Positions 12,638 through 31,547 of a stretch of DNA of 64,000 bases are shown here, piece after piece (position 1 is the stretch's first letter; every line of letters begins with the position of its first letter). The DNA lies in the NCBI RefSeq assembly GCF_000016545.1, contig NC_009437.1, positions 2,878,501 to 2,942,500 of the forward strand. The letters run 5' to 3'. The stretch comes from Caldicellulosiruptor saccharolyticus DSM 8903. Its GTDB lineage: Bacteria > Bacillota > Thermoanaerobacteria > Caldicellulosiruptorales > Caldicellulosiruptoraceae. The position numbers were made by a program, and so were the translations under genes. The notes under the pieces are model-generated. The model saw only the letters and a program-made list of their open reading frames with translations. It searched no databases and was not told the DNA's origin.

Positions 12638-13399
12638 TTACCTTGCAAGCCAGCCGCCATCAACATTCAAAATACAGCCATTTACATACTCAGACGCATC
12701 TGATGCCAAGAACACAACAGCACCCTGCAAATCTTCAGGTGTCCCCCATCTTCCGGCAGGTATTCTTGATAATATCTCAGCGCTTCTTTGTGGGTCTTCA
12801 CGGAGCTGTTGTGTATTGTTTGTTGCCATGTAACCAGGTGCAATTGCATTGACATTTATCTTGTACTTTGCCCACTCATTTGCAAGCGCTTTTGTGATAC
12901 CTGCAACACCGCTCTTGCTTGCTGTGTATGATGGAACCCTAATTCCGCCCTGGAATGAAAGCATGGATGCGATGTTTATTATCTTTCCGCCTGTTCCTTG
13001 CTTGATAAACTGTCTTGCTGCTGCCTGGCAGAAGAAAAATACTGTCTTGAGATTAATTGCAAGCACATCGTCCCAGTCCTTTTCAGTAAAGTCAATAGCA
13101 TCGCATCTTCTGATAATTCCTGCATTGTTCACTAAAATGTCAAGCTTGCCGAATTCCTGAATTGTCTTTTCGATAATCATGTTAATTGGCTCGATTGTCA
13201 TCAAGTTTGCCTGAATCTCCAAAAACCTTCTTCCAATTGACTCTATTTTCTGTTTTGTCTCTGTACATGGAACATAATCAACACCAACAATATCAGCTCC
13301 AGCCTCTGCCAGTGCAATTGCCATCCCCTGGCCCAAACCTGTTGATGCACCTGTTACAATTGCAACTTTGCCATCAAGTTTGAATTTATCAAGTATCAT
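12638..13399 (-). CDS. kduD: 2-dehydro-3-deoxy-D-gluconate 5-dehydrogenase (SDR family)
   Basis: KduD reduces 2,5-diketo-3-deoxygluconate to 2-keto-3-deoxygluconate (KDG) with NAD(P)H in the breakdown of unsaturated uronates. The 253-residue short-chain dehydrogenase shows the TGASTGLGQGMA cofactor loop (about 17-28), NNAGI (about 91-95), the catalytic Ser in NIASMLSFQ, and YTASKSGV with the YxxxK pair. The C-terminus ends in the substrate-lid GGWLAR typical of KduD. GGAGGTG stands before the ATG. It follows kduI by 32 nt and shares its direction. Confidence 0.92.
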   Translation of the reverse strand: MILDKFKLDGKVAIVTGASTGLGQGMAIALAEAGADIVGVDYVPCTETKQKIESIGRRFLEIQANLMTIEPINMIIEKTIQEFGKLDILVNNAGIIRRCDAIDFTEKDWDDVLAINLKTVFFFCQAAARQFIKQGTGGKIINIASMLSFQGGIRVPSYTASKSGVAGITKALANEWAKYKINVNAIAPGYMATNNTQQLREDPQRSAEILSRIPAGRWGTPEDLQGAVVFLASDASEYVNGCILNVDGGWLAR

Positions 13400-13431: not shown

Positions 13432-14262
13432 TTATTTCAATTCCTTCATTGGAACAGGATTAACATCTGAATATGATTGATTTTCGCCTGCCATTGCCCA
13501 GATGAATGTGTAGTTTTTAGTTCCAACACCAGAGTGTATCGACCAGCTTGGGCTGATTACCGCCTGTTCGTTTCTCACAATAATATGTCTTGTCTCTTGG
13601 GGCTCTCCCATTAGGTGCAATACAAACGCATCTTCAGGCATGTCAAAATAGAAATAAACTTCCATCCTCCTGTCATGCAAATGGCATGGCATAGTGTTCC
13701 ATACATTGTTCGGCTCTAAAATTGTCATTCCCATTACAAGCTGACAGCTTTTCACACCGTCTGGATAGATGTATTTGTAGATTGTCCTTTCATTTGACTC
13801 AGAAAGCGAACCAAGATGCGTTGCCTCAGTTTGCTTGATATCAATCTTCTCTGTTGGATACTGCTTGTGAGCGGGTGTTGAAACGAAGTAGAACTTTGCA
13901 GGATTTGAAGGGTCATCGCTTCCAAATTCAAGCTTTTTGGTCGACATTCCAACATAAAGCCCATCTTTCTTGTCAAGTTCGAACTTGTGTCCATCAGCTA
14001 TGACATACCCTTTGCTGCCTATGTTAATTATCCCAATCTCTCTTCTTTCAAGAAAATACTGAGCACCAATCTCTTTGCCATCTTCTAAAACCAAAACTTC
14101 CACTGTTGGCATAGCACCACCAACAATCACTCTATCAACATGAGTGTAGACCATATTTATCTTGCCATACTCAAAGAGATTTTCAATCAAAAACTCTTTT
14201 CTCATCTGCTCTGTCGTAAGAGTCTTAAACTGGCTTGGATGCATTGCAAACCGAATTTCCAT
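13432..14262 (-). CDS. kduI: 5-dehydro-4-deoxy-D-glucuronate isomerase
   Basis: KduI converts 4-deoxy-L-threo-5-hexosulose uronate, the open form of the unsaturated uronic acid left by lyases and GH88, into 2,5-diketo-3-deoxygluconate. The 276-residue double cupin has the family start MEIRFAMHPSQFKTL, VDRVIVGGAMPT, EPNNVWNTMPCHLHDRRMEVYFYFDMP with the His/Glu zinc ligands, and SPSWSIHSGVGTKNYTFIWAM near the C-terminus. Together with kduD and kdgK it forms the classic uronate arm. Confidence 0.96.
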   Translation of the reverse strand: MEIRFAMHPSQFKTLTTEQMRKEFLIENLFEYGKINMVYTHVDRVIVGGAMPTVEVLVLEDGKEIGAQYFLERREIGIINIGSKGYVIADGHKFELDKKDGLYVGMSTKKLEFGSDDPSNPAKFYFVSTPAHKQYPTEKIDIKQTEATHLGSLSESNERTIYKYIYPDGVKSCQLVMGMTILEPNNVWNTMPCHLHDRRMEVYFYFDMPEDAFVLHLMGEPQETRHIIVRNEQAVISPSWSIHSGVGTKNYTFIWAMAGENQSYSDVNPVPMKELK

Positions 14263-14285: not shown

Positions 14286-15314
14286 TTATCTTTTCATCAT
14301 TCCAGAACTATCTTGTGAAAGTGCTTGTTTTATTTCATCCTCAGTCACAATCAAACTGTCGCCTTCAACTGTATGTTTTAGAGCACACATATATGTTGCC
14401 ACCTCAAGCATCTGACTGCTTTTAAGCCCTCTTAAAATGCTATATAGCACACCTGCGGTAAAAGCGTCACCTGCCCCCACCCTGTCAATAACTTCTATTT
14501 CACGTTTTTTTGAAAATACAATGTTGCCATTTTCATCTTTTGTATAAGCAAAAAAGGTGTTCTTAGAAGCAGAAAGACTTCTTCTTGCAGCAAGAATTAT
14601 TCTCTCCAAGTTTTGGTACTTTGTTTGCAACCTTTCAAACAAAACCTTTTGACCATCAAAAGTCAGGTCAATACCCTCAAAATATTTTTCTTCCATATCA
14701 ATCTTTAAAACTCTTCTTACATGCTCTTCGTTTGTAATTAAAATGTCCACATACGGCATAAGTTCTGAAATCACTTCATTTGCTCTATCATAGCTCCACA
14801 GTTTTGATCTATAATTGATGTCAAACGCCACCTTTGCACCTGCATTTTTTGCAGTTTTAAAAGCCATTTTTAGCTCATTTAGCACATTTTGGGATAAAGC
14901 AGCAGTGATTCCTGTTGAAAAAAATATCTTGGTCTTTCTTAAAATGTCCTCCCAGTCGATATCCCCAGGCTGTATCTCATTTATGGCAGAGTCTGCTCTG
15001 TCGTATACAACAGAAGATGCTCTCTGACCAACACCCTTTTCAAGAAAATAAATTCCAAGCCTTCTGCCTTTTCTTTTTATATAGCTTGTATCAACCCCAT
15101 ATCTTCTCAGAAAGTTTATAGTAGCATCTCCAAGAGGATTTTGCGGAAGAAGTGTTACATAGCTTGTCTTTACCCCAATGTTCGATAGAGCAACAACAAC
15201 GTTTGCTTCAGCCCCGCCAAAATTGATGTCAAAACTTGTCGCCTGTAAAATCCTCTGATACCCAGGCGGTGAGAGTCTTAGCATTATCTCTCCAAAGCTT
15301 GTTACCTCAAACAT
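14286..15314 (-). CDS. kdgK: 2-dehydro-3-deoxygluconokinase (PfkB family)
   Basis: KdgK phosphorylates KDG to 2-keto-3-deoxy-6-phosphogluconate. The 342-residue ribokinase-fold protein begins SFGEIMLRLSPPGYQRILQATSFDINFGGAEANVV (substrate side) and carries the PfkB signature DRVGAGDAFTAGVLYS with the catalytic Asp near residue 285. The first half also has the Arg-rich loop YIKRKGRRLGIYFLE typical of KDG kinases. It precedes kduI by 23 nt. The KDPG aldolase expected next to it is only a stub (15320-15450). Confidence 0.92.
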   Translation of the reverse strand: MFEVTSFGEIMLRLSPPGYQRILQATSFDINFGGAEANVVVALSNIGVKTSYVTLLPQNPLGDATINFLRRYGVDTSYIKRKGRRLGIYFLEKGVGQRASSVVYDRADSAINEIQPGDIDWEDILRKTKIFFSTGITAALSQNVLNELKMAFKTAKNAGAKVAFDINYRSKLWSYDRANEVISELMPYVDILITNEEHVRRVLKIDMEEKYFEGIDLTFDGQKVLFERLQTKYQNLERIILAARRSLSASKNTFFAYTKDENGNIVFSKKREIEVIDRVGAGDAFTAGVLYSILRGLKSSQMLEVATYMCALKHTVEGDSLIVTEDEIKQALSQDSSGMMKR

Positions 15315-15470: not shown

Positions 15471-17729
15471 TTAATTAACTATCTCCACAAACCCCTTTTT
15501 ACCATCATATTTAAAGTTAACAATCTTCCCATTAACAGTAACTCTTACAGGTTTTATTTCCGAGCTAAATTTAGCTCGCATTACATCTTGCCCCTCGATA
15601 TGAATCTCCATGCATGATTTGTCCACTTTAAAATCAACAAATGCTTTTGACAAAGAATCAAAAATAATTTTGTCACCCTTTCGTAAATAACTTCCATAAA
15701 CTATGAAACAATGGTTGAAATCTTTATCTACTTGTGTTTTTTCTTTTGTCAAAAGTAAGATATATGCATCAGTTTCCCAACCAAATACATTGTTATTGCT
15801 ATTTTGGTGCATCCTTCTACCATCTGCCCTTTCATTAAAGTAGACATAAGTAATTAAATTACCTTGGACTATCGAAACACCTATAATTTCATTGTATTCA
15901 ATTGGTGATATTTTAGGAATTTTGTTATTCTTATCTAATAAAACCAGAGCAGTAATATACTTGGCTTCTCGACCTTTAGACGCAGTATTAAAAGAAAAAT
16001 AGGTTGCTTTTGTATCTGGATCGTGATCTTTCAACCCTTCAACTTTTTCTATGAAAATCTCCTTTGGAAAAATATTCCTCACAATAATTTTTGAATCATT
16101 ATTTTCAATTACGATTTCTTTATCCTTACAAGTAGCTTCACCTTCATAATGCAACAACCATTGAAACACTCCTTCCTCATACGCTCTGACATCATCAATG
16201 ATTAATATCACATTACCAATCCATAGGAAGTGCCGGTAATTGCGAGAAAAATATCGTGCCATCGGACCAGTAGCATCAGCAAAAACATATTTGATATTCT
16301 TGGTCTCAATCAAATTATGTATTTTCCCTTCATATTTTACCCCATAGTATATATCTTCTTCACTCTGCCCTTTTCCATCGAAGAGAACAACATTATGAGC
16401 AAGACTTTGACAATAAAACTTTTTATATTCCTCTCTACTATATGAGCATGAACCTGAATCAATTATAATAGGCTTACCTTCATGGAAAAGCATAAATGAG
16501 CCTGCATCAGCATGAGCATGATTCCAGGTGTAGCCACATTTCACAGCAAGCAATGTTGAGTCTATCTCCCATGATTTTCTTAAAATAGCCAGTCCTATAT
16601 CTTTATAAAGAATTGAAGTTTCTAACTCGTTGGGAGGCAATTTTCCTTTAGCTCGAATATTCTCTTCATATACCAAGTCAATAATGCTGTAACTTGGTTC
16701 TTGTCTTTCCAAGTACCATCTTATGGCTGAATTATCAACACCACAGGCCAAAAGTAACCTTGCTGCTTCACAAAAATTTCCATAAACATAGCAGTCGCCA
16801 AAATTGATTAAAATATTTGGTGCTTTTTCTTTTGAAGTTGGATATATAGAATGAATTAGAAAATTAGCTATCTTTTCCAATTCTGACTTATACGCAATCT
16901 CGGAATAGCCAAATAAATTTTTATGTGCTAAAGCAAAATATAAAAATTCGGAAATAGCATAATTTGTATAACCAGCGCCCTCGTAAAATGCACCTTTTTC
17001 GTCAAAATTGGTACATTTGTTATGAAGAATAGCACCTTTGTATTTAAACCATTGTTCAAAGTCTTTGATTATTTGATTAGCAAGTTCTTCTGCTCCTTCT
17101 ATTTTGTCAACAAAAGATAACAATCCAAGTCCAGCTTCTGCAACACAGACTGCCCACCAGTTATGTCCCATCGAATCTAAAGAATGAATTCTCCTTGCTG
17201 GTAAATACCAATCATTAAGAAGGGGATCAATCCCCAGCCTTTTTGCCCCCTGGGCAATTATATTACGCTCATTTTCAGAAAGATAATCATGTATACAATC
17301 ATAACCTATAGAATATCCAAATAAAAATCTTGCTGTATTTAACTCTGAGGTCCATGGTGGGTCTCTATCAAGGCATTCTCTACCTGCCCATTTTTCATAG
17401 TTTATATAATACAAAAGTGCTTCTTTCAGTTTTTCAGCATATTTCGGGTCACCTGTCACTTGATAAGTGAATCCTAAGTAAAATCCCATCTTACTTACTT
17501 GATTGGCAGGATCACCATATCTACCATGCTGGCTATATATTGAATCTGCATATTCTTCAGGGTAAAGTGATTGTGTTAAAAGAGACTCTGCTTCTCTCAC
17601 AATATCATCAAATATCTTTTTATACTTTTTATCACTACTTATCTTGTCTTTAACTTTCTCAATTTCATTCCGACCAAATAGAAGTCGTGGTCGAGGTTTC
17701 CAACAAAAAGAATTACTTTTCTTGTACAT
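15471..17729 (-). CDS. Heparinase II/III-family protein (cytosolic polysaccharide lyase)
   Basis: 752 residues, no signal peptide. The N-terminal two-thirds is an alpha/alpha toroid (HSLDSMGHNWWAVCVAEAGL, GAFYEGAGYTNYAISEF). From about residue 395 comes the heparinase II/III beta-domain with its hallmark NHAHADAGSFMLFHEGKPIIIDSG, SREEYKKFYCQSLAHNVVLFDGKGQ. Such enzymes cleave uronic-acid polysaccharides by beta-elimination, leaving a 4,5-unsaturated uronate. Without a signal it should act on imported oligomers. It lies 106 bp after the SLH gene, across a strong terminator, and abuts the eda remnant. Exact substrate and PL family cannot be set by eye. Confidence 0.85.
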   Translation of the reverse strand: MYKKSNSFCWKPRPRLLFGRNEIEKVKDKISSDKKYKKIFDDIVREAESLLTQSLYPEEYADSIYSQHGRYGDPANQVSKMGFYLGFTYQVTGDPKYAEKLKEALLYYINYEKWAGRECLDRDPPWTSELNTARFLFGYSIGYDCIHDYLSENERNIIAQGAKRLGIDPLLNDWYLPARRIHSLDSMGHNWWAVCVAEAGLGLLSFVDKIEGAEELANQIIKDFEQWFKYKGAILHNKCTNFDEKGAFYEGAGYTNYAISEFLYFALAHKNLFGYSEIAYKSELEKIANFLIHSIYPTSKEKAPNILINFGDCYVYGNFCEAARLLLACGVDNSAIRWYLERQEPSYSIIDLVYEENIRAKGKLPPNELETSILYKDIGLAILRKSWEIDSTLLAVKCGYTWNHAHADAGSFMLFHEGKPIIIDSGSCSYSREEYKKFYCQSLAHNVVLFDGKGQSEEDIYYGVKYEGKIHNLIETKNIKYVFADATGPMARYFSRNYRHFLWIGNVILIIDDVRAYEEGVFQWLLHYEGEATCKDKEIVIENNDSKIIVRNIFPKEIFIEKVEGLKDHDPDTKATYFSFNTASKGREAKYITALVLLDKNNKIPKISPIEYNEIIGVSIVQGNLITYVYFNERADGRRMHQNSNNNVFGWETDAYILLLTKEKTQVDKDFNHCFIVYGSYLRKGDKIIFDSLSKAFVDFKVDKSCMEIHIEGQDVMRAKFSSEIKPVRVTVNGKIVNFKYDGKKGFVEIVN

Positions 17730-17834: not shown

Positions 17835-20800
17835 TTATTTTGTACTTGAAAGAACATCAAGTAGTCGAGAAAGTATAGTCACCGCTTCTTCTCGGGTTAT
17901 TATGTTGGTTGCCCTGAATGTATTATCCTGATAACCTCTAATAATCCTGTATTTTACAGCAATACCAATGTCTTCTTGTGCCCATGCAGGAATGTTTGCC
18001 TTGTCAGTAAAAACTATTTCGCCCTTCCCTATTTCTTTCAAACTGAGCTTTAATACCCTTGCCACTATTACTGCGAACTCTAATCTTGTTATAGGTTTGT
18101 CCGCATTGAACATTACTTGCCCCTCTTTAGAAATTCCTTTAATGATTCCATTCTCTGCACATACTCTAACTGCATCCTGTGCCCATTGTGGTATGCTTCC
18201 CTTATCTGCGAATTCTATCTTTGTGGTATTAGTTGGCTTCAAATTAAGTGCACGTGCAATAACTACAGCTACTTCTGCTCTTGTCATATTACCTTTTGGT
18301 CTAAATGTTGCATCTGGATATCCATTGACAATTCCAAGATTCACAGCTTTTGCAATTTCCTTCTGCGCCCAACTGTTCTTTACATCTTTAAATACGTTAG
18401 TTATAGGTGTAGATGTAACTATAATCTTTCCATAATTCTCAGCAATGTCGAGGCGTACCCCAACCGTTTCACCAATAGTAGCTTTAGTATTTACTTTCTC
18501 TAATCTGTTGTTCTTATCTATCACATATGCTTCTAAAACCTCTGTGTCTTTTACTTTGTTCTTGTCTATATTAATCTTGACAGTGAGAGCTCCATTGATG
18601 GTTCCATTAACAGTCATTTCATATGCGCTAATAACATTCCTATCCTTACTTATAATCTTTGTATCACTCACAGTGACAGGTTGGACTACTACATAAGTAT
18701 TGTCACCTTTGATTGTCCCTCTTGGTATGAAGATTTCTACATTTGATACTGTAATTTTTGTATCCTTATCAACATTTATGGTTATTGCATTATTAGGCTT
18801 TTCTGGTGTAGTTGGTGCTTGCTTAGTTGACTGTGATGTTTGTTGTTGTTCACTTGTAGGTACAGATGTAGATTGATTACCTGTAGGTAAAGTAGTTATA
18901 CCAGTAGTTGGAATAGTTTCACCGCCTGACGGTATCGTGGTCGATGGCATTTTTGGATTAGAAACATATATTGTCAGCGGGACAGTCGTCTTTTTACCAC
19001 CTGGCTGAATAATATCAAATAGAACTTGATATATACCTGTTGCTACGTCTTCACCTGGTAACCATGTTAGTACTCTATTGTTATAAGTTGCACCCTTGGG
19101 CAAGTCCCTTGCTAATACATTTACTCCAAAACCATCCACCGGCACCAACGTTTCAACTTTGTATTCCAATTTTTCTCCTACAGTAATCGATTTTGGTGCA
19201 GTATCTGCCAAGGTTACTACCCAGTCTCTTGAATAATCAATGCCCTCTTCCTCTACTTTGTTTACTGTAATCTTTACAATGCGTGTTACGATGTAATTTC
19301 CAAAGTCATATGTTATTATTGCATGATAAATTCCTGCTTCACCTTTTTGGGTCGTCCAAGTAAACTGTCCACCATTTACCCTTGCTGTTTGAGGATAATT
19401 ACCGCCTATCCTTACAGTTGCACCTTGAATTGATGCGTCAAATGTTATAGTGTCTCCTTCATTTACTTCTGTATCCAGTATCGATGGAATTGAAATATTA
19501 TTATCTGACATATCTGCCCCAACAACTATTCTTTTGATTTTTTCCACTATTGAGTTATGATATGGATCCTTTGCTATCGCTTTTATCATATAATCGCCAG
19601 CTTTAGTTGGAGTCCATGTTATTGTTTTTGTTGCCGGGTCAAATGTAGCATCATTTGGTAAACCAAAAACATTATACTCTATCTCGTCCCCTTCAGGGTC
19701 TGACACCCCTAAGTCAATTTTAATTTGCTGATTCACTATAAATGGAGCGTATACTAAATCATCTGTGGATATCTGAACATTTGAGATAAAAGCTGTATTT
19801 TCTACAGCTTGTGATGCTATCATTGCAACACCTACATACAATGTACTACCCATCTTAAACTGGATAGAAGGTTTAGAGGTTTCAAGGTATGTTTTCTCTT
19901 CGTCAAGTGAATAGCAATATTTTATAGTATTGCCTTTCTTTATAAGTTTAAAATATATTGGTACAGTTTTGTTGTTCATATCAGGTGCCCAGTATTTTGT
20001 GGTGTTAGTACCTTCAGTGCAAGAATGACTTACCAAAAGAATGTTATTGTTATTAGAATAATGCCTCAGCTGGACAAAGTTTGCGTTGGTAATATCTAAA
20101 GAGTCTGTCACCATAATAGCGAAGTAATCCCAGTCTGTTACGGTACGAGTAAATCCACTTAACCTAACTTTTATCTCAAAGTCTCCCGTTAACTCCTTAT
20201 ATGCATAAGTAAGTGCAAATGGATTGTTATATATACCTGTAGAGGTTATTGAAACCGGCTGACCTGTATTATCAAATTGTACACTGCCTGTTGCACCATT
20301 AATGTTAACAACCTTCCATTGTCTTTCAGTGCCAGTTAAACCACCTGTATTGAATACAGGTTGCATATTTTCTGAATACCTAAATTCAACAATGTTTTCC
20401 TCATCATTAGCTGCAACAGTAATTGTTTTTGTTTGTTGATCAACTAATTTGTAGCCATCGAAATTCTTAGCAAATACTGTAACTTGTTGTCCAGGTTCTG
20501 CAGGAATATTCTCATAGCCTAACAATTTATCACCTGCTCTGTATTTAACACCTACTATATTGACAGGTCTCTCTTCAAGTATTTCTAATACAACTGTCTG
20601 TTGCGGCTGAACCTGAATTTGAATGTCTTCCCCATTGGTGGATTGATAAACTTTACCACTAATTAAATCTCTTGCTTTCCTAATTCCCCGTGTATTCATA
20701 AAGTATACCTTGCCATACTGTCCGACTGTTGGATCATCTTTAGACTGATTCATACCGATTAAGTATTTACCAAATCTTATTTCTGAATAACCGTCAAAAC

Positions 20801-23800
20801 GGATATGAGTATAGCTTTTCCCTTCGGGGTGTGTAGTGGAATCGATCCAACTATAAGTTCCACCTTTAGTAGTTCCTACAACAGTTGCTAATCTTTCAAC
20901 TGAATCAGTAGTAAAGTGAATTCTTACATGCTGATTGTATTTCCAATCGGATCTTCGATAGTTGAAAACGATATATGCCATATCACCTTTGTTCTTAAAT
21001 ACAACTACTTGACCATCAGTATCAGCCCACGCAAAATCTGGATGCCCATCTTCCATCGGGTAATAAACCATTTTCCCTTGATTTTCCAATTGTTGTTTCA
21101 ATTGTTCGGCATATTTGTAATACTTTATAAGCTCCTGTAGTTCTAAAATTCTGGTGTATACATGTGGGGTTTTGTCATTGTAAATTTCACTCCTAAATGT
21201 ATCTGTATATCCTCTCTGATCCTCTATATATTTGAAGAATGCCCTCTGGGCCACAGAACAGTTAAGTTTAAAAGCAACATATCCTGCTGACGGAGTAATT
21301 GGATATTCAACTTTTTGTCCGTTTCCAGTATTTCTTGAACCAATAAACATTTCTGTAATTAGAATATTTTCACCATTTGCATTTACAGCTGGCTTAAGGA
21401 AATAACTTGCTGCTTCAAATGCCTTACAAGTTATCTCATTTATATACTCTTCTATTTTTTCGTCACCTTCAGCAGCCTCAGCATATTTGTTAAGTTGTTC
21501 TATAATTAACCACCCATATTCTCCTGCCCAACCACCATGACTTGCACCGCCTTCTAAACCCAAACCTTGGTCTGAGAGCCATTTCTGGCCATCAACCATT
21601 TCACCAAATTTATATTTCATCTGACGAATATATGGCTCATCATCTTTTGGATGATATTTTTCTGGTATATTTTCTGGCGTATCAACTGTACTGTACTTCA
21701 TACTGTCAAAAAGAAGTTTTACAGCTTTGTTTGCAAAGTATGCAAAACCAAAATCTTGATTTGCTGTACCTGCTCTAACCGTAGGATCGTAGTAATCTCC
21801 TTTTATTGGATTTGCTAAGTAATCTCTCAATCTTGCAAACATCTCAATATAAGATTGTCGTCGTGTCTTGTCATATTTACCTGTCAAATCGTTGTCTACT
21901 TTTTCATCTAAGTATTTTATAAAGCGCTGTTTTAAAGCTTCATTGGTACCATTCATTATATAATTGTAAAGTCTTATAAATGTTAAGTTCATAGAATCAG
22001 AACCTAATGTCATCAGAGGCCAGCTCTCACCAACTCCACGCTCACCACTACCATTCAAGTCTGCTCCTATCCATGCATATGCATTTGCCCCGCTTGTCGG
22101 TACACACCATCCACCATTTCTATCTTGAGCTTTTGCTAAGAAATCGTAAAACTTTATTATTCTGTCTAACAACTCCTCATTTTGATAATATTCAGGCCAT
22201 ATTGGATTCATAAACGCATTAGCGAATATTTCTGCCGACATAAGAGGTGACCAATTCTGGTAATTCAATGCATTTTGTGTAACCTGCTTTGCCCATACCT
22301 CTCGTGTTCCGCTGAAATTTTTCAAACTCTCTACTGGTGTATAGGTAACAACGGCACCTTCTAAGAAATCATTATATACTGACTTGAAGACCTCAAATTT
22401 AGGACCATATAACTGCCACGACATTATCATTTCAAGAAATTCTTTTCCCTCTTCATAGAGCAAATCGTAAACATTAGAATAAACTGAAGAGGATGCAGGT
22501 TTCCCTCTTACTTTTTCCCCTGTAAACAGATCTTCAGGAATGTAGAACGGATCAGTATGTGTAGCAGCTGAATATATGAATTTACTATTTTCTGTCTGGC
22601 TTCTATATGTGCCTGTCCCATATGAATCAAATATACCTGTACTCATTATGCATAAGCGAACATACCCATCTGGATGAACGAGTTCTCTTGGAATAATATA
22701 GGTGTCATAGTAATATATTCCTGGATAGGTAGGACCTTGTATATAATAGCCACCATCTAATTCTTCAAATTCAGTCCCTGCCTTTGGATTTAAAATTGTA
22801 GTATCACCGTTTGGTCCAAGCAAAAGTAAGTTACCCCTATTTTGCTGATTTCCATTTACTCTAATTGTCAAATAATTTTGCTTTGTGGGGTCAGCTTTAA
22901 GTGTAAATTCTAATTTCGCATCAAGAACTTTACCCTCTGGTGAGGGTTTCAGATACCTATAGGTAAACCCATGCCCTAATCCCCCACCTGTTAGCCTACC
23001 GTCACTGACTTTAGTTTCAGGTTCAGCAACCTCATCAACACCTGCTACACTTAGTTTTTCTTCAAATTGATGGGCTTTTTCTGAATCATAGTCACCAAAT
23101 CTAATTATATCTAATGCATTAGTCTTGTACTGTCCAATAGTAATAACTTCACGAGTAAGTTTTGCTTGTAATTTGAGATTATCTGCGGTTGTAACATTTC
23201 CCTTTACTACTGCAATTATTCCTGATTTATTGTTTACAATTGAACTAAATGCAACTTTTATCAAACTGTCATCACTTACATACTTACTCTGATCATCAGT
23301 ATTTACAGTGACTTCAACATAACCATAATATACATCTTCATATACACTGTTTAGGGTAATATTCCATCCTTCTTTTGCACAGGTTGCACTCTTATATCTA
23401 AAAAGATTCTTATCATAACGAATAGTAATATCCTCTGCTTTAATCTTATGCTGATCACTATAAACACCCACGTATACTTCGAAATCTTGATTTGCACTTA
23501 CATATTGCGGTGAAATGGTTGTAACAACTGGTGCACCTATCACTTTTACAGTCGCTGTCACCTGCTTTTGAGCCTGTCCATAGGTGGCTACACCATTTAC
23601 AATAAACTCACCTTCGCTTGTGTATAACTCTGGTGGAATATCATCCCACCTAATTTTTGCATACACAATCTCTTCATTATACACAGCTGCAGCCACTGCC
23701 GGCAGCTCAGGTTTTACTCCTACTTTAGTTGTTATTTCAATAGGAACAACTGTCAATTCAACAGGCGATACAACCAAATCATCCACCCAAACTTCCCCAT

Positions 23801-25616
23801 ATGCAGCTCTGAAACCTAAAGTTATGCTTAATCTGTTAGCGTTAGCTAAGGTAGTGTAAGTTACTGTAAACTTCTGCCAACCATTGGTATTAGCTACGTT
23901 TGGGATACTATATCTCGTATCACTTCCCAGTCCTGTAGTCCCATTGTATGAACGAAGATAAATGTATGCTCCTTCTGCTGTTGCAGAAGTATTAAATTTG
24001 TTATAACCACGCGTATAGTACCAAAAACTTATCCTATATGTTTTATTTGGTTCTACTTTATAAGCCGGCGTACTTCCGCTCATAAAGTTTACAATTCTAA
24101 TATTCCCATCATTTTTTGTTGTATTTGTACCAGAAAATTTCCATGCACGATTTCCACTATGGACAAATTCACTATCATAGCCTTGAGAATACCCTGTTGT
24201 ATTACCACTTGTATATTTATACCATATTGGTGGATCATTCTCTTCAAATCCATATTTGTACATCAATGATTCTGCACCATTATCTCCAATGCCCTTAATG
24301 ACAATTTCTTTTATAGCTGTTGTAGATTTGATATTTTCTCCCGTTAATAATGTTACCTGATTATCCACTAACTCAATTAATGTACTCTTTTCCCATATTT
24401 TAGGTAAGAATTTTATCTTAATAATCGTTCCTTGCTTTATTGAATTATCAGGATTGTTCGTTTGAACTTTAACATGTAAGTAACTTGCACTAGATGAAGG
24501 ATCATCGTAAGTATTTGTATTTACGACGTTCCAATTAGCCTCTACACATTGTGTATACACATGTTGTAGCACTGTTCTATCATATTTTAATGTTATCTCT
24601 TCTTCCACTACATTTTCATCTCCATATACTCCTACTGAAACTTCAAATTCCTTGCCATAATCTACATACTCTGGTGCTTCAAATGTGGTTGTCACAGGAT
24701 TAATTACTTTTATATTCGCTGTTACATTGCATACACTGTCCTGCCACTTCGCAACTCCAGTAATGCTAAATTGTCCTACCTGAGAATACAAGGTTGGATC
24801 AATGTCTGGCCAATAAACGTTAGCAGTCACCGTGTAATCATCATATGCATCAGCGTAAACAGCCTCTATAGTTGCCGGTAAAAGTGGGGCATTGCCCACA
24901 GTAGTGGTTACATTGAGGGACTTAGTCGATAATCCTAATGGTACTACTCTCAAATCATCGTACCATACTGTACCTGTGGTATTCCTGAAACCTAAGTTTA
25001 TTCTCATTTTATTTGCACCTGTTGGTGTAGTATATGTTATCGAGAATTTCTGCCAATCGGGAGTCGTGATGGGTTGACTTGTGTTATATGGGATACTAAA
25101 TCTTTTTTCACTGCCACTTATTATTGTTGAACCATTGTAAGCACTTACATATATATAGCCACCTTCATAAAACCAACTTCTTGGTTCAAATCTAAAAAAA
25201 TCTTTTGCAAAATAGTAAAAACTTATCCTATATGTTGTGTTTTCTTTTACAGAAAGAGAAGGTTGACCTCCATCTGGCATGTTTTGTATCCATATATTAC
25301 CGCTATTGTATGCTGTTGCTGTACTGGAAAACTTCAATGAACGTGCACCACTGTGAGAAAAAGTATCATCGTATTCGCCAGAATAATATACCGCATCAGT
25401 AGTAGAAGTTTTTAGATACCATATATTAGGGTCTGAAGTTTCAAAACCATATTCAAAAATTTCCCCAGAACCTATTCCACCTTGGGAAGCCTTAACAACT
25501 GTACTCTTTATGAACAGATTTTGAAACGGAACAATTGAAAATAAGAAGAAGAATAACATTGTTAATAACGCAATAAACCTTCTCAAGTACTTCTTTGTTG
25601 TTAATCTTCTCCCCAT
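17835..25616 (-). CDS. Giant SLH-anchored, multidomain surface protein, probable polysaccharide-degrading enzyme
   Basis: 2,593 residues. Domains by eye: signal peptide (1-45); carbohydrate-binding-like beta-sandwich, bacterial Ig-like and cohesin-like domains, the set occurring twice (about 60-435 and 449-829); a further beta-sandwich (834-1019); a helical, probably alpha/alpha-toroid catalytic core (about 1050-1520, with QDRNGGWCVPTSGANAYAW and GGASHGGWAGEYGWL); beta-rich lyase-like region (to about 1640); MucBP-like segment; lectin-like domain (about 1760-1950); Ig domains; a Thr/Ser/Pro linker (about 2222-2275); and three SLH repeats (about 2409-2592: WAQKEIAKAVNLGIVNGYPD and so on) that bind cell-wall polymer. 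The context suggests it makes the first cut in a uronic-acid polymer. The catalytic family is not recognised. Confidence 0.85.
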   Translation of the reverse strand: MGRRLTTKKYLRRFIALLTMLFFFLFSIVPFQNLFIKSTVVKASQGGIGSGEIFEYGFETSDPNIWYLKTSTTDAVYYSGEYDDTFSHSGARSLKFSSTATAYNSGNIWIQNMPDGGQPSLSVKENTTYRISFYYFAKDFFRFEPRSWFYEGGYIYVSAYNGSTIISGSEKRFSIPYNTSQPITTPDWQKFSITYTTPTGANKMRINLGFRNTTGTVWYDDLRVVPLGLSTKSLNVTTTVGNAPLLPATIEAVYADAYDDYTVTANVYWPDIDPTLYSQVGQFSITGVAKWQDSVCNVTANIKVINPVTTTFEAPEYVDYGKEFEVSVGVYGDENVVEEEITLKYDRTVLQHVYTQCVEANWNVVNTNTYDDPSSSASYLHVKVQTNNPDNSIKQGTIIKIKFLPKIWEKSTLIELVDNQVTLLTGENIKSTTAIKEIVIKGIGDNGAESLMYKYGFEENDPPIWYKYTSGNTTGYSQGYDSEFVHSGNRAWKFSGTNTTKNDGNIRIVNFMSGSTPAYKVEPNKTYRISFWYYTRGYNKFNTSATAEGAYIYLRSYNGTTGLGSDTRYSIPNVANTNGWQKFTVTYTTLANANRLSITLGFRAAYGEVWVDDLVVSPVELTVVPIEITTKVGVKPELPAVAAAVYNEEIVYAKIRWDDIPPELYTSEGEFIVNGVATYGQAQKQVTATVKVIGAPVVTTISPQYVSANQDFEVYVGVYSDQHKIKAEDITIRYDKNLFRYKSATCAKEGWNITLNSVYEDVYYGYVEVTVNTDDQSKYVSDDSLIKVAFSSIVNNKSGIIAVVKGNVTTADNLKLQAKLTREVITIGQYKTNALDIIRFGDYDSEKAHQFEEKLSVAGVDEVAEPETKVSDGRLTGGGLGHGFTYRYLKPSPEGKVLDAKLEFTLKADPTKQNYLTIRVNGNQQNRGNLLLLGPNGDTTILNPKAGTEFEELDGGYYIQGPTYPGIYYYDTYIIPRELVHPDGYVRLCIMSTGIFDSYGTGTYRSQTENSKFIYSAATHTDPFYIPEDLFTGEKVRGKPASSSVYSNVYDLLYEEGKEFLEMIMSWQLYGPKFEVFKSVYNDFLEGAVVTYTPVESLKNFSGTREVWAKQVTQNALNYQNWSPLMSAEIFANAFMNPIWPEYYQNEELLDRIIKFYDFLAKAQDRNGGWCVPTSGANAYAWIGADLNGSGERGVGESWPLMTLGSDSMNLTFIRLYNYIMNGTNEALKQRFIKYLDEKVDNDLTGKYDKTRRQSYIEMFARLRDYLANPIKGDYYDPTVRAGTANQDFGFAYFANKAVKLLFDSMKYSTVDTPENIPEKYHPKDDEPYIRQMKYKFGEMVDGQKWLSDQGLGLEGGASHGGWAGEYGWLIIEQLNKYAEAAEGDEKIEEYINEITCKAFEAASYFLKPAVNANGENILITEMFIGSRNTGNGQKVEYPITPSAGYVAFKLNCSVAQRAFFKYIEDQRGYTDTFRSEIYNDKTPHVYTRILELQELIKYYKYAEQLKQQLENQGKMVYYPMEDGHPDFAWADTDGQVVVFKNKGDMAYIVFNYRRSDWKYNQHVRIHFTTDSVERLATVVGTTKGGTYSWIDSTTHPEGKSYTHIRFDGYSEIRFGKYLIGMNQSKDDPTVGQYGKVYFMNTRGIRKARDLISGKVYQSTNGEDIQIQVQPQQTVVLEILEERPVNIVGVKYRAGDKLLGYENIPAEPGQQVTVFAKNFDGYKLVDQQTKTITVAANDEENIVEFRYSENMQPVFNTGGLTGTERQWKVVNINGATGSVQFDNTGQPVSITSTGIYNNPFALTYAYKELTGDFEIKVRLSGFTRTVTDWDYFAIMVTDSLDITNANFVQLRHYSNNNNILLVSHSCTEGTNTTKYWAPDMNNKTVPIYFKLIKKGNTIKYCYSLDEEKTYLETSKPSIQFKMGSTLYVGVAMIASQAVENTAFISNVQISTDDLVYAPFIVNQQIKIDLGVSDPEGDEIEYNVFGLPNDATFDPATKTITWTPTKAGDYMIKAIAKDPYHNSIVEKIKRIVVGADMSDNNISIPSILDTEVNEGDTITFDASIQGATVRIGGNYPQTARVNGGQFTWTTQKGEAGIYHAIITYDFGNYIVTRIVKITVNKVEEEGIDYSRDWVVTLADTAPKSITVGEKLEYKVETLVPVDGFGVNVLARDLPKGATYNNRVLTWLPGEDVATGIYQVLFDIIQPGGKKTTVPLTIYVSNPKMPSTTIPSGGETIPTTGITTLPTGNQSTSVPTSEQQQTSQSTKQAPTTPEKPNNAITINVDKDTKITVSNVEIFIPRGTIKGDNTYVVVQPVTVSDTKIISKDRNVISAYEMTVNGTINGALTVKINIDKNKVKDTEVLEAYVIDKNNRLEKVNTKATIGETVGVRLDIAENYGKIIVTSTPITNVFKDVKNSWAQKEIAKAVNLGIVNGYPDATFRPKGNMTRAEVAVVIARALNLKPTNTTKIEFADKGSIPQWAQDAVRVCAENGIIKGISKEGQVMFNADKPITRLEFAVIVARVLKLSLKEIGKGEIVFTDKANIPAWAQEDIGIAVKYRIIRGYQDNTFRATNIITREEAVTILSRLLDVLSSTK

Positions 25617-25811: not shown

Positions 25812-27914
25812 TTAGTGTGTAATTATACACACTGCAGAATGAGGTATTAATACATCATCATTAACTTTAATCTGAAATATTTTTTGACCTTCAAAAGGTG
25901 AAACATTGAGAGGAAAGTTTGAATGATTAATTATAACAATTCCATTTTCAAATAAACAACATTCAATATCCTTTCCAGTAACAGATTCACTTGCTGGTTT
26001 AAGATGAAAAGAAACAATCCTTTTAAACGGGTCATCAGATACATAAGGAACTGGATAAAATTCTCTGTTTCCTTTTTCTCTTGGTATTCCTAATATCTTC
26101 TTTGAAATATATGAATATCCATAGTCAAATCCAAATGAATATATAAATCCTTCCCCAAATCTATTTCTAACAATACACCCCTTGCGATCAGAATCATAAG
26201 CAGCTATTATTTCTTCTCCCTCAAAATATTTGTATCTTATGCTCACAGGGACTATTCCTTCTTTATAAATTACACAGTCCTTGGTATGAGGCTTACCTTT
26301 AAATCCAAAAATACACTCTACTAACATGTCGTGAGGTCCATGAATTATAATACCTCCTCTCTCTACCCACTCTCTTATCTTTTCCTCTGCTAAAGCTCTT
26401 CTATCAGCTTTATAGCATATATTCGCAGGTAAAATTAAAATCTTATAATTATCAAGTGCTCCTTTTTCAATTTGATTCAAATGAATAATATCCACCATAT
26501 ATCCTGCATCACACAGAGATTTATACCATCCCAAAAAATCCATTCGTCTTTCTTTATTGTTTTCTATACTCAAAGGCTCTAATAAAGCCATTGCCGAAGG
26601 ATACAATATAGCAACTTGACTTTTAACCCTATTTTTAAGACGAGGTATAACCTCTGCTGCCCATTGATTACCCACTTTAATAGAAGCTTTAATGTTTTCG
26701 CCCATTTTATGAAGCAAGCCTCCATCATCCAAACCACAATACCCATACACAAAATAACCTTTTGCACCACTCCCTACAATGCTCCCTATCATCTCTGCTG
26801 GTGTAATATATCGATATATATCATTGTATATATAACGGCCAATAAACAACCCCACTATAAAATCGCGATTCTCATTCATACACCTTATCATATTAGCTTG
26901 GCAAGATACAACGTAAGGTTCTGTCTCACCAACAGGATCAACTGGAACAGTTGTAAATGTACAAATATCAACAAAATCTTTTATTTCATAAGGATCTAAT
27001 CCTCTATATGCCGTATCCCATAAATCTCCAAACGAAATTTCATCAGTATTTTCTGTGTAATTAAATAAAATGTTCCACTGACTAAGATTAGGTATTAAAA
27101 ATAGTCGTGAATCATATTCTTTAAATCTCTTTTGCATAATCATAAAATATTCTTTTAGTTCCTGCAGCCTCCATAACATATTATCTACAAAAATCCTAAA
27201 AGCAGGCGTTAATAACAAAATATCATTCTCGGTCAACTTTCTTTCTTTAAATTTAAGCTCAAACCAATAATCATAAGGACTGATTTCTTCAAAGCTTATG
27301 AAATTAGTGTTATATGCTTGGTTTAATACTTCTATATTACCCTTATATTTCGTTTTCAACCAATTTTGGTATCTACTTATCCCTTCATCATCAAAACTTG
27401 GAGCTACTACAGGGTCCCACATACTACAAAGAGGAATCTTTTCTTCTTCATTTACTTCAAGGATAGTATGATTATCAGAATAAAGCTTTAACAAGCCTTT
27501 CACGTGCTCTTCCATTACTTTATGAGCCTTACAAGACCAATACTTGTACCATCGCTCTTTTTTCCCGTCGATTCCAACAATACTTTCACCTAATACTGGA
27601 GGACTAAATCTTATTTCTGGATATAAATTATCTCCATTGAGGTAAATGGCTAAAAAGTTATGAGACAATCCTTTTTCTTTTATAACTTTCATCATGTACT
27701 CTTGCATTTCTACATATTGCGACGGGGATTTTCCTGCATACCTATCAAAAAAATCAGCCCAACTTTTTGAATCAAGCATAACACTGTTAAATCCCATTTC
27801 TTTTATTTCTTCTATAGCATTTTCGATGAACTTCTTATCGCTAAAAGCTGGTTCATAGAAGTTGCCAAACCAAATATTAAAAAAAGGTTTACCTGACTTC
27901 TTACATTTAATCAA
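25812..27914 (-). CDS. GH42-like (beta-galactosidase-type) glycoside hydrolase with altered acid/base site
   Basis: 700 residues, no signal peptide. The N-terminal TIM barrel opens FFNIWFGNFYEPAFSDKKFIENAIEEIKEMGFNSVMLDS. About residues 190-235 carry the GH42 landmark ISRYQNWLKTKYKGNIEVLNQAYNTNFISFEEI. Residues about 430-620 are the Rossmann-like trimerisation domain (YKILILPANICYKADRRALAEEKIREWVERGGIIIHG). In classical GH42 the segment before the WLK landmark contains Asn-Glu with the acid/base Glu; here it reads SMWDPVVAPSFDDEG. The enzyme may thus use another residue or belong to a related family. It follows the transporter genes and is probably cytosolic. Confidence 0.7.
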   Translation of the reverse strand: MIKCKKSGKPFFNIWFGNFYEPAFSDKKFIENAIEEIKEMGFNSVMLDSKSWADFFDRYAGKSPSQYVEMQEYMMKVIKEKGLSHNFLAIYLNGDNLYPEIRFSPPVLGESIVGIDGKKERWYKYWSCKAHKVMEEHVKGLLKLYSDNHTILEVNEEEKIPLCSMWDPVVAPSFDDEGISRYQNWLKTKYKGNIEVLNQAYNTNFISFEEISPYDYWFELKFKERKLTENDILLLTPAFRIFVDNMLWRLQELKEYFMIMQKRFKEYDSRLFLIPNLSQWNILFNYTENTDEISFGDLWDTAYRGLDPYEIKDFVDICTFTTVPVDPVGETEPYVVSCQANMIRCMNENRDFIVGLFIGRYIYNDIYRYITPAEMIGSIVGSGAKGYFVYGYCGLDDGGLLHKMGENIKASIKVGNQWAAEVIPRLKNRVKSQVAILYPSAMALLEPLSIENNKERRMDFLGWYKSLCDAGYMVDIIHLNQIEKGALDNYKILILPANICYKADRRALAEEKIREWVERGGIIIHGPHDMLVECIFGFKGKPHTKDCVIYKEGIVPVSIRYKYFEGEEIIAAYDSDRKGCIVRNRFGEGFIYSFGFDYGYSYISKKILGIPREKGNREFYPVPYVSDDPFKRIVSFHLKPASESVTGKDIECCLFENGIVIINHSNFPLNVSPFEGQKIFQIKVNDDVLIPHSAVCIITH

Positions 27915-28013: not shown

Positions 28014-28907
28014 TTATCCTTTAACTGCTCCAATTACAAGTCCTTTTATAAAGTATTTTTGTAAGAAAGGATAAAGAAATATGATTGGTCCTATAGTAAC
28101 AACAGTTGTTGCCATTCTAACAGTTTGTTGAGGTAGGATATAATTTACTGGCATATTCATTTCCTGGGCGTATTGTGTTAACATTTGGATATCACGCATT
28201 ATTGCCATTATCAGGTATTGCAAAGTATACAACTTTTGATCTGTGATGTACAAAACACATTTAAACCATTCATTCCAGTAACCCAATGCATAAAAGAGAG
28301 ATAACGTAGCAATAGCTGGTTTTGATAAAGGCAATATGATCTTCCACAAAATATAAACTTCACTTGCTCCATCTATCCTTGCTGATTCTGCTAATGAATC
28401 AGGAATAGTTCCAAAGAAATTTCTCAAAACAAACAAATTCCACGGATTTATCAATGAAGGGATAATATATACCCATATGGTGTTATCTAAATGCAAATAT
28501 CGCGTGATAAGAATATAGCTAGGAACTAATCCCCCGCTGAACAACATAGTAATATATACATACATTGCAATATAATTTCTATACTTCAAATTTTTTACAG
28601 ACAAAGGATAAGCCATTAAAGAAGTAACAATCATACTCAAAACAGTTCCTACAACAGTTACGAAAATTGTCACTTTATACGCATTTAATACTACATTCCC
28701 CTTAAAAACTATCTTGTATGCGTCAAATGATATTCTTTTTGGGATCAATGTGAATCCATTGGCAGCCAAGTCTGCCTCGGGAACAATAGAATTTATTATA
28801 ACTAAAATAAAAGGAATCAAACAAAATATTGAAAAAAGACCCATAAAAACGTATGATATCACTTCTAACATAATATCACTTTTACTTCTGAATCTCATAT
28901 CTGTCAC
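28014..28907 (-). CDS. ABC transporter permease, LplC/YtcP type
   Basis: 297 residues with six membrane helices and the CUT1 EAA loop SARIDGASEVYILWKIILPLSKPAIATL (about 190-216), which contacts the ATPase. The ending YFIKGLVIGAVKG is typical of MalG-side permeases. It is co-transcribed with the LplB-type permease (8-bp gap) and the binding protein. No ATP-binding subunit is encoded nearby, so a shared MsmK-like ATPase from elsewhere is inferred. The likely cargo is oligosaccharides from the uronic-acid polymer. Confidence 0.92.
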   Translation of the reverse strand: MTDMRFRSKSDIMLEVISYVFMGLFSIFCLIPFILVIINSIVPEADLAANGFTLIPKRISFDAYKIVFKGNVVLNAYKVTIFVTVVGTVLSMIVTSLMAYPLSVKNLKYRNYIAMYVYITMLFSGGLVPSYILITRYLHLDNTIWVYIIPSLINPWNLFVLRNFFGTIPDSLAESARIDGASEVYILWKIILPLSKPAIATLSLFYALGYWNEWFKCVLYITDQKLYTLQYLIMAIMRDIQMLTQYAQEMNMPVNYILPQQTVRMATTVVTIGPIIFLYPFLQKYFIKGLVIGAVKG

Positions 28908-28915
28908 CTTCTTTT

Positions 28916-29839
28916 TCAGAATATAGCAGCTTCTTCATCAATTCTTTTTACTAAAGTATTAACTATGACAACTAAAATAAACCCTACTATTGACTGCATC
29001 AGACCAACTGCTGCTGACATTCCAACGTCATTTAACTGTCGGAGAGCTCTAAATACATAAGTATCAATGACATCTGTTGTTGGAAATAACAGAGAATTGT
29101 CTCCAACCAAAGCATATATCATCCCAAAATCGCCTTTAAAAATATTTCCTAAACCCATTAATGTCAAAAGAATTGCAGGCTGTTTTAATTCTGGAAGAGT
29201 AATATACCTGATACACTGAAGCCTGCTTGCACCATCAATTCTTGCTGCTTCAAATAGCTCAGGATCAATTCCAGTAATAGTGGCAAGGTAAATTATAGAC
29301 CCCCACCCAGCACCTTTCCAAATTCTCAAAATAGTCAGCAATAATGGCCAAGGCCGTGGGTCACCATAAAAATTGATGGGTTCTAAACCCATGCTTTTTA
29401 ATACTTTATTTATCAATCCGCTTTCTGGTGAACAAAGAGTTAACAAAAACATTGCTACCACTGTCCAAGACAAAAAATGAGGTAAGATAGAAACACTTTG
29501 AGACACTTTTCTATAAATTGGGTTAGTAATTTCATTTAACAAAACAGCTATTCCGATGGAAAATATCAAACCGGTAAAGATGAATAACAAGTTTAAGTAT
29601 AATGTATTAAATACAATACGTGGTAAATCGCCACTTTCTATAACAAATCTTATATTGCGCAATCCCACAAACTTACTTCCAAATATTCCCTTAGAATAAT
29701 CAAAATCTTGAAATGCTATTATAATCCCAATGTATGTTATATAATCAAAAATAAAAAAGAAAATTATACCCGGCAAGGTCATTAGATAAAGTGCTTTATT
29801 TTTAGTTAATTCATATATTACTGAACCTTTTTTTCTCAT
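28916..29839 (-). CDS. ABC transporter permease, LplB type
   Basis: 307 residues. The family N-terminus with a long first helix (YLMTLPGIIFFFIFDYITYIGIIIAFQDFDY) and GSKFVGLRNIRFV are characteristic of LplB/YtcP partners of family-1 oligosaccharide importers. The EAA loop is FEAARIDGASRLQCIRYITLPELKQPAILLTLM. It pairs with the permease at 28014-28907 to form the membrane channel. A GC-rich hairpin separates it from the binding-protein gene. Confidence 0.92.
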   Translation of the reverse strand: MRKKGSVIYELTKNKALYLMTLPGIIFFFIFDYITYIGIIIAFQDFDYSKGIFGSKFVGLRNIRFVIESGDLPRIVFNTLYLNLLFIFTGLIFSIGIAVLLNEITNPIYRKVSQSVSILPHFLSWTVVAMFLLTLCSPESGLINKVLKSMGLEPINFYGDPRPWPLLLTILRIWKGAGWGSIIYLATITGIDPELFEAARIDGASRLQCIRYITLPELKQPAILLTLMGLGNIFKGDFGMIYALVGDNSLLFPTTDVIDTYVFRALRQLNDVGMSAAVGLMQSIVGFILVVIVNTLVKRIDEEAAIF

Positions 29840-29876
29840 ATTTTTTCCCGTCCTTCGGTTAGTTTTTTATTTTTGG

Positions 29877-29908
29877 AGGGGAGAAGGTAAAAGATCACCT
29901 TCCCCCTC
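29877..29908 (-). terminator. Intercistronic hairpin between binding protein and permease
   Basis: A stem (gaggggagaaggt / accttccccctc) lies just downstream of the binding-protein stop. Such hairpins commonly raise the amount of binding-protein message relative to the permeases by partial termination or mRNA protection. Confidence 0.6.
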
Positions 29909-29936
29909 ATCGTTCCACAAAACCTAGTCTACTACC

Positions 29937-31547
29937 TTACTTCTTACCACCATATTTTTGATCGAGAAATGCCTGAAGCTGTTTTCTCAATTCTTTTCTT
30001 ACCTTTTCAAATCCAGCTGCTTTTATTCTCTTCACAAATTCCTGCACCTTTGCCTCTGGGTCAGGATAAAGTCCTGCACAAAGTGGAAGTTGATATGTTG
30101 ATTGAATACTACTAATCTTTGCCATTTCAACTTTTACAGGTGTCTGATCAAATGTAAATCCTGCCAATGGCGACTTGCTATAAGTATCAAACCTGTATTG
30201 ATAATCAAACCACTTTTTGATTTCACTTGGCAAATCAGCTGGTTTTCTTACATAAGTCGGATTCCATGTCAACTGATAACCAGGAAACTGATAGAGATTA
30301 TTGGGATCAACACTTGGAATTTTATATTGATCACGTCCTACAGGGATCCAATCTTTATTCTTTATACCAAACTGGAACAAATCGTGATTTTCCTGATTTT
30401 GGAATATCCAGTCTAAAAATTGCATTACTCTATCAACCTTTTTTGATGTTTTCGGAACACAAACATAATTTGAAACTTTCATTGTTGTCCAATAAGCTCC
30501 TTTTTTCATTGCTAACACATTCTTGTTTTCACAGATAAGAACACCTAATTCCGCACCAGGAACATTTTGTTTAAGTGTAGCTTGAGTGCTCACAAATCCA
30601 CTCAAATTACCCTCACATACTGCATATTTACCTATTAAGAATGGAGTGTTGTCACGAGAAGCGTATATTGAATCTTTGTCAACAAGTGGATAGAATTTTC
30701 TTGCCATCTTTACATAGTATAAATAAGTGTCAAGTTTGTTATACGGTGGTGGATAGGCTGAAAATGCAGATTCACCTTCACCGGGTACTGCTATTTGTTG
30801 AACTCTCTTATAATCAGGCGAAAGCAAAGCCATAGCTCCAGTAAATACCCAACTCATTACCTGTTGAACACGCGGATTTGGTTCTACATTGGGATTGACT
30901 TTGAAAGCTCTTGCCCAACCAGCATTGCCCAAATAAATTGTTTTAATATTTTTTTCGTTCTTTTGAACCAAACTCATAAACTTATACAGATCATCATAAT
31001 TTTTCAACTCGCCCAATCCATATTTCTTTGCTAAATCTAACCTATAAAAAACTACCTGGAAATCAGTCAATGATTCAGTAAGAGGTACAGCTATCAATTT
31101 TCCAAAAAATTTATTAGCTTCCAAAAAATCTTTTGGAAAAGCTTTGTAAAGCCCTGGATATTTTTTAGGATTATTAAAGTATTTTTCTAAATCATTATAC
31201 ACATCTTGCGTAGCAAAAGTATTTAAATTCATCCATGGAGCATCAAAAACAAGGTCCATCTCCTCTTTTGCTGCCACCATCATTTTCATTTTATCCTTGT
31301 AGTCTGCGCTTGTCGGAATAATAGTAAGATTGAGTTTAATATTAAGAGTATTTTTGGTCCTTTTTTCAAACTCTGATATTACACGATCCACATTTTTGAA
31401 AAGACTACTTCCACCCCAAAAGTACAATTTCAATGTGGTTTGAGGCGGAGCCGACTTAACCATTTGTGGCTGGAGGGAAACTATACTTAATAATATAAAG
31501 CACACAACCACAACCAAACATAAAGCTTTTTTGATAAACCTTTTCAT
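29937..31547 (-). CDS. Extracellular solute-binding protein, LplA-like (family 1)
   Basis: 536 residues. Residues 1-32 form a basic, hydrophobic export signal ending near VKSAPP. It lacks a lipobox Cys at the cleavage site, unusual for a Gram-positive binding protein, so it may be retained in another way. The mature start LKLYFWGGSSLFKNVDRVISEFEKRT is typical of the large LplA/YtcQ-type proteins that feed LplB/LplC permeases. It captures oligosaccharides outside the membrane. It lies between the AraC regulator and the permeases. Confidence 0.88.
   Translation of the reverse strand: MKRFIKKALCLVVVVCFILLSIVSLQPQMVKSAPPQTTLKLYFWGGSSLFKNVDRVISEFEKRTKNTLNIKLNLTIIPTSADYKDKMKMMVAAKEEMDLVFDAPWMNLNTFATQDVYNDLEKYFNNPKKYPGLYKAFPKDFLEANKFFGKLIAVPLTESLTDFQVVFYRLDLAKKYGLGELKNYDDLYKFMSLVQKNEKNIKTIYLGNAGWARAFKVNPNVEPNPRVQQVMSWVFTGAMALLSPDYKRVQQIAVPGEGESAFSAYPPPYNKLDTYLYYVKMARKFYPLVDKDSIYASRDNTPFLIGKYAVCEGNLSGFVSTQATLKQNVPGAELGVLICENKNVLAMKKGAYWTTMKVSNYVCVPKTSKKVDRVMQFLDWIFQNQENHDLFQFGIKNKDWIPVGRDQYKIPSVDPNNLYQFPGYQLTWNPTYVRKPADLPSEIKKWFDYQYRFDTYSKSPLAGFTFDQTPVKVEMAKISSIQSTYQLPLCAGLYPDPEAKVQEFVKRIKAAGFEKVRKELRKQLQAFLDQKYGGKK

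Follow-up and report, generated by a model that had tools for sequence, protein, structure and literature searches.

Csac_2722 of Caldicellulosiruptor saccharolyticus is, with a probability of about 0.7, a secreted, S-layer-anchored lyase that acts on a 4-linked uronate polymer. The gene is located in the window, which is the whole 64-kb stretch of DNA that was analysed. The evidence is composed of homology to an unnamed family, a predicted toroid-plus-beta-sheet fold, the invariance of N-Q, Y-G, and R residues, and the neighbouring genes. The lyase chemistry, the roles of the residues, and the order of the pathway are deduced from these.

The gene and its surface modules

The open reading frame (ORF) is on the minus strand, starts with ATG, and has an aaaggaggt ribosome-binding site. 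At 2,593 residues it is the longest in the window, as had been predicted, and the runner-up encodes 1,156 residues. The length, signal peptide, and SLH domains agree with those of Csac_2722, and the gene is almost certainly this one. The ORF is free of frameshifts and stops. A promoter and terminator scan gave a promoter signal no better than background.

The gene has been on record since 2012. Csac_2722 appears in the title of a paper by Ozdemir et al. (AEM 78:768), whose abstract reportedly describes cellulose binding and weak CMC activity. The lyase assignment of the core appears to be new; the literature examined contains no lyase reading. A 2017 transcriptome paper lists the gene as 'hypothetical protein/carbohydrate binding' with the CAZy label 'GHnc' and a SigP of 'Y' (PMC5658599).

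The N-terminal module is tandemly duplicated. Its two copies, residues 53-440 and 452-825, share 40% identity over 390 residues (E 2e-86), and the doubled binding module set of the original prediction is real. Pfam assigns three SLH repeats and two Big_4 domains to the whole protein, and the CBM_4_9 and cohesin matches in the modules are both under the Pfam cut-offs. Two cohesin-like domains had also been predicted and are weakly supported: against a cut-off of 24.1 bits, the PF00963 profile reaches 18.4 on copy 2 and does not match copy 1, and the best PDB matches include the cohesin-like module of NagJ (E 0.12). NagJ is a known precedent for such a module outside cellulosomes, but its match to the Csac_2722 modules is weak. 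A cellulosome-type role is unlikely because the genome (one contig, 2,970,275 bases) has no match to dockerin (PF00404). The top cohesin-profile match of the genome, which is below the cut-off, falls in a protein of 1,156 residues near GH88 (34225-37695). This protein has only a weak NPCBM match and is possibly another carbohydrate enzyme.

The core is followed by a beta-rich domain, a He_PIG domain, a linker, and the SLH repeats. Three SLH repeats and a signal peptide, which together characterize SLH surface proteins, are both present (Table 1).

Table 1. Features of Csac_2722 and its neighbours, in window coordinates
Feature	Coordinates	Strand	Basis
Whole gene, 2593 aa	17835..25616	-	Length and domains agree with Csac_2722; length and name in PMC5658599 Table 1
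Signal peptide, residues 1-44 approx.	25485..25616	-	Hydrophobic N-terminus; SigP in PMC5658599
N-terminal module copy 1, residues 45-445: CBM_4_9-like, Big_4, cohesin-like	24282..25484	-	Pfam; duplicate of copy 2
N-terminal module copy 2, residues 451-826: CBM_4_9-like, Big_4, cohesin-like	23139..24266	-	Pfam; duplicate of copy 1
Beta-sandwich ahead of toroid, residues 830-1028, CBM35/GH146 C-terminal-domain fold	22533..23129	-	VIA
His1020, Y..THT motif at sandwich/toroid junction, possible base	22557..22559	-	Invariant; role by inference
Helical toroid domain, residues 1043-1520	21057..22490	-	AF2 models; VIA and Foldseek to toroid lyases; family homology
Asn1286-Gln1287, proposed carboxylate neutralisers	21756..21761	-	23/23 invariant; role by analogy with PL35/PL40
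Tyr1367, proposed catalytic acid/base	21516..21518	-	Invariant; role by analogy with PL35/PL40/PL8
Arg1428	21333..21335	-	Invariant
Antiparallel beta-sheet domain closing catalytic unit, residues 1527-1684	20565..21038	-	AF2 models; VIA; family homology
Beta-rich domain, residues 1755-1955	19752..20354	-	No Pfam family above cut-off
He_PIG (Ig/cadherin-like) domain, residues 1962-2025	19542..19733	-	E 1e-7
Three SLH repeats, residues 2405-2590	17847..18404	-	Pfam, E 6.9e-35
Short-chain dehydrogenase (SDR), read as KduD	12638..13399	-	SDR family only; KduD from position beside KduI
KduI	13432..14262	-	E 1.4e-33
PfkB kinase, likely 2-keto-3-deoxygluconate kinase	14286..15314	-	PfkB family; specificity inferred
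Heparinase II/III-type lyase without signal peptide; GHNWW, EGAGYTNY, HAHADAG motifs	15471..17729	-	Domain and motif reading
GH42-like protein	25812..27914	-	E 1.7e-6
Two ABC permeases and DUF3502 protein (likely solute-binding)	28014..31547	-	Domain matches
AraC-type regulator with Cache domain	31712..34108	-	Domain matches
GH88, unsaturated glucuronyl hydrolase family	38592..39773	-	Domain match

The core, its family, and its predicted fold

By profile search, the core (about residues 830-1685) is a member of a family of bacteria and haloarchaea that has no Pfam or NCBIfam model. The core matches no catalytic family in Pfam, NCBIfam, or PDB sequence searches, and no relative tested matches one in Pfam or NCBIfam. 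Lyase_8, Lyase_8_N, and Lyase_8_C are not matched by the core at E up to 10 or by the relatives at E up to 1, and Hepar_II_III has no Pfam match on the core. Profile searches of all PDB sequences gave nothing for PL33, PL35, PL39, or PL40 at E up to 10. By profile comparison the family is linked remotely, and modestly, to PL8 alone, with an hhalign P of 1.4e-5 (probability 80%, 67 columns) vs 0.15 for heparinase II/III and 0.65 for GH88. Among PDB sequences, chondroitinase AC gives a weak match (E 0.09) that falls in this stretch of the toroid. Cyclomaltodextrinase matches (E 0.6, PDB sequences) were discounted; they cover nothing but the final beta strands.

The first relative, a Halocatena marina protein, came from plasmid sequences searched by tblastn with the core (E 9e-6), and it led on to its paralogs and then to a Sphingobium protein. 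An alignment of four members, used as the profile for a search of named genomes, retrieved 19 loci from Sphingobium, Chthoniobacter, Sphingobacteriaceae, many Streptomyces and Streptacidiphilus, Halocatena, and Salinarchaeum. A profile of these loci from which the window protein was left out matches its residues 817-1684 (E 1.5e-62) and matches neither the reversed sequence nor any of 200 shuffles. The original limits of the core, residues 1050-1640, contain the helical centre, but the conserved unit is longer and has a beta-sandwich ahead of the toroid. Single-protein scans of genome and viral contigs with the core found no relatives, nor did scans of the viral contigs with the relatives as queries. 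Neither the 11 other genomes of the genus nor about 400 from the phylum yielded a homologue; of two marginal matches there, one is in an alpha/beta hydrolase ORF (E 0.004) and one was taken as chance (E 0.008).

The window core forms a long branch in the family tree. Among the 12 genomes of the genus examined, the core and the heparinase-type neighbour are each present only in DSM 8903. Bordering the uronate cluster (6241-12206) are transposases of the ISL3, IS110, and Mutator types, the last split over two ORFs (11193-11837, 11904-12206), along with a phage integrase. The presence of both genes in one genome of 12, with mobile elements at the cluster edges, would fit lateral gain.

Streptomyces relatives (L020-L030, L034) have an extra domain of ~160 residues inside the toroid, just before the point equivalent to window residue 1252. 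One Streptomyces member of 1,622 residues (L031:8782-13647) contains long extra sequence without a Pfam domain. In haloarchaea (L035, L033) there are two deep paralog groups, with two or three genes close together.

AlphaFold2 models the window core with modest confidence (pLDDT 66, pTM 0.70) and the Sphingobacteriaceae relative L019 with good confidence (pLDDT 84.5, pTM 0.87). In the window model, helices at about residues 1045-1513 are followed by strands at about 1528-1701, which is the toroid-like helical layout and following beta-region of the original prediction. The structure search suggested with it returned the toroid-lyase fold, including PL8 by Foldseek (chondroitin ABC lyase 2q1f, E 1.1e-8; 2wda, 1.7e-4) and PL33 by VIA (Z 11.7). 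The other VIA matches of the window core are PL40 (12.6), PL15 (11.7), and PL17 Alg17c at Z 14.3 over 353 residues (rmsd 4.2), a level that can reflect the general arrangement of helical folds. The L019 model matches PL35 GAGase II by Foldseek (E 1.9e-6) and, by VIA, PL17 (Z 15.0 over 333 residues, rmsd 4.5), PL40 (13.3), PL35 (13.2-13.7), and PL15 (13.1). PL families absent from the VIA lists are not counted as excluded.

The toroid and sheet domains together give the longest structural alignments (330-380 residues), to lyases of PL17, PL40, PL35, PL33, PL15, and PL39 and to dermatan sulfate epimerase. Other matches cover the toroid alone, among them epimerases, GH88, and GH15, so the toroid by itself would prove little. 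In the models, the layout of the core is that of PL8/15/17/33/35/40 lyases, without a sequence match to any solved structure. The beta-sandwich has VIA Z scores of 11.6 to 6yqh/5opj and 10.4 to 4qb2 (homolog, 12.3). Its fold resembles the C-terminal domain of GH146 in both models and CBM35 in the window core, and the sandwich of a relative has a tblastn sequence match to a GH127 protein.

Invariant residues and gene context

All 23 family sequences share D836, T917, T972, P976, Y1015, T1019-H1020, D1158, W1182, G1196, R1252, N1286-Q1287, G1356, Y1367-G1368, R1428, P1520, and D1532 (window numbering). The His/Tyr/Trp motifs that had looked conserved give way to N-Q, Y-G, and R. The window core deviates at near-invariant positions, e.g., 1018 (Y to A) and 1360 (E to H); at the latter, seven positions ahead of the Tyr, the family has a conserved Glu.

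The carboxylate is neutralised by a pair of Asn residues in PL35 and by Asn-Trp in PL40; a Tyr 54-60 residues downstream is the acid, and a His from the beta-sheet domain is the base (PMC12088678, PMC12915356). By analogy, the best reading places Asn1286-Gln1287 and Tyr1367, which is 81 residues after Asn1286, in the active site. The core-family alignment has no conserved counterpart of the C-terminal catalytic His of PL35/PL40, nor of the PL8 His that precedes the catalytic Tyr by about nine residues. In PL28 acting on GlcA, Tyr alone is reported as the base. The candidate base in the core may be Tyr alone, as in PL28, or His1020.

KduI, KduD, and GH88 act on unsaturated uronides, the products of lyases. 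In the window, the minus-strand order is AraC regulator, DUF3502 protein, two permeases, GH42-like protein, Csac_2722, heparinase-type lyase, PfkB kinase, KduI, and SDR, with GH88 slightly upstream. Gaps of 195 and 105 bases flank Csac_2722. These neighbours point to lyase function. Because another lyase, the heparinase-type neighbour with its HAHADAG motif retained, is already in the window, this context is partly accounted for without Csac_2722. A GH39 gene at 39751-41325 is apparently split, with the first half of the profile in one ORF (40420-41325) and the last part in another (39751-40266).

The Sphingobium member is adjoined by a TonB receptor, GH88, KduI, SDR, and an MFS transporter, and the Salinarchaeum member lies alongside a GH88 that is 43% identical to that of Sphingobium. 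These two contexts are independent support for the lyase reading. GH88 or mannonate dehydratase is near the Halocatena members. GH43 is the recurrent neighbour of the Sphingobacteriaceae and Streptomyces members, which hints at polymers bearing arabinose or xylose. A two-domain fusion, part beta-lactamase-like and part alpha/beta hydrolase, lies beside the Sphingobium (L017:11379-13346) and Sphingobacteriaceae (L019:6362-8248) members, with 50% identity between the two copies, and an alpha/beta hydrolase ORF is close to one Streptomyces member (L021).

Proposed function and comparison with known lyases

In the proposed mechanism, the two sets of CBM-like modules and the SLH repeats would tether the cell to plant material. 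The core would cleave a 4-linked uronic acid polymer by beta-elimination, with the C6 carboxylate neutralised by Asn1286 and Gln1287. Tyr1367 would be the acid and possibly also the base; Arg1428 and His1020 are the other invariant candidates. The neighbouring ABC transporter would import the unsaturated oligosaccharides. Inside the cell, the heparinase-type lyase and GH88 would finish them, followed by KduI, KduD, and the PfkB kinase. A counterpoint is the 3.8-fold induction of Csac_2722 on xylan relative to crystalline cellulose (PMC5658599); xylan backbones have no 4-linked uronic acid. The cellulose binding and weak CMC activity reportedly described in 2012, the long branch of the window core, its deviations at near-invariant positions, and the missing C-terminal His also weigh against the lyase reading.

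The chances that the core founds a new PL family fall a little short of even. Such a family would extend across Bacillota, Actinomycetota, Pseudomonadota, Bacteroidota, Verrucomicrobiota, and haloarchaea. It would combine a fused GH146/CBM35-like domain with a toroid bearing Asn-Gln and Tyr, without the usual C-terminal catalytic His; the thermophile member would work from its S-layer on a uronate polymer of plants. A new lyase or hydrolase family was the original prediction. The lyase layout, the position outside Pfam, NCBIfam, and PDB families, and the lyase-pathway neighbours favour it, but the gene itself was already known from the 2012 paper and as 'GHnc'. Novelty was judged against Pfam, NCBIfam, and PDB. 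CAZy also includes PL families without a structure or Pfam model, and membership of the core in one of them is unlikely, though well short of negligible; it would compete with the novelty and not with the lyase claim. Against it, plasmid records label the Halocatena relatives hypothetical proteins only, the relatives tested lack a Pfam or NCBIfam catalytic family, and PDB chains give no convincing sequence match.

That the core is instead a glycoside hydrolase of an unclassified family, e.g., a weak endoglucanase, is improbable. The GHnc label (PMC5658599), a 2012 title that sets Csac_2722 within plant polysaccharide deconstruction, the toroids of GH88, GH15, and GH78, and invariant acidic residues of the family (Asp1158, Asp1532, and the Glu seven positions ahead of the Tyr) would all suit a hydrolase. 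However, hydrolases align to the toroid only and not to toroid plus antiparallel sheet, KduI/SDR/GH88 neighbours occur in both the window and Sphingobium, and in the alignment the window protein has His1360 in place of that Glu. Slightly more improbable still is a catalytically dead toroid in a protein that serves as a surface adhesin or scaffold for the attachment of cells to plant material: the many binding-type modules, SLH repeats, 'carbohydrate binding' annotation (PMC5658599), long branch, and substituted near-invariant sites favour it, but every one of the invariant N, Q, Y, G, and R residues is retained, the gene is intact, and it is flanked by a GH42-like gene on one side and by the lyase gene of a uronate pathway on the other.

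If the lyase reading is true, a model biomass degrader has a lyase, and not an unclassified hydrolase, as its largest protein, and an unnamed family gains a testable function across several phyla, including archaea. In a thermophile, a route that takes an acidic plant polymer from the surface to the cytoplasm becomes directly testable. A heat-stable lyase of new specificity would be useful for the analysis of plant gums and pectic polymers.

PL8 is made up of chondroitinase AC/ABC, hyaluronate, and xanthan lyases. The core resembles these enzymes in its predicted toroid and antiparallel sheet, in the Asn and Tyr of the toroid, and in the profile and Foldseek (E 1e-8) matches. It differs in having no Lyase_8 match, no conserved His ahead of the Tyr, and an extra N-terminal beta-sandwich of the CBM35/GH146 type. 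PL15, PL17, PL33, PL35, and PL40 give the best two-domain structural alignments and share a Tyr and an Asn-x pair, the putative neutraliser of the core. Their sequence identity to the core is 6-11%, their C-terminal catalytic His is not conserved in the core family, and the core has Asn-Gln where they have Asn-His/Trp/Asn. Heparinase II/III-type lyases (PL12/15/17/21) share the two-domain fold, with PL17 and PL15 aligned to both models at the Z scores given above. PL38 consists of one barrel and lacks a beta-sheet domain; the toroid of a relative matches BoPL38 with a Z of 14.5, and BoPL38 entry 9fi3 is a Q173N mutant, which suggests an active-site Gln.
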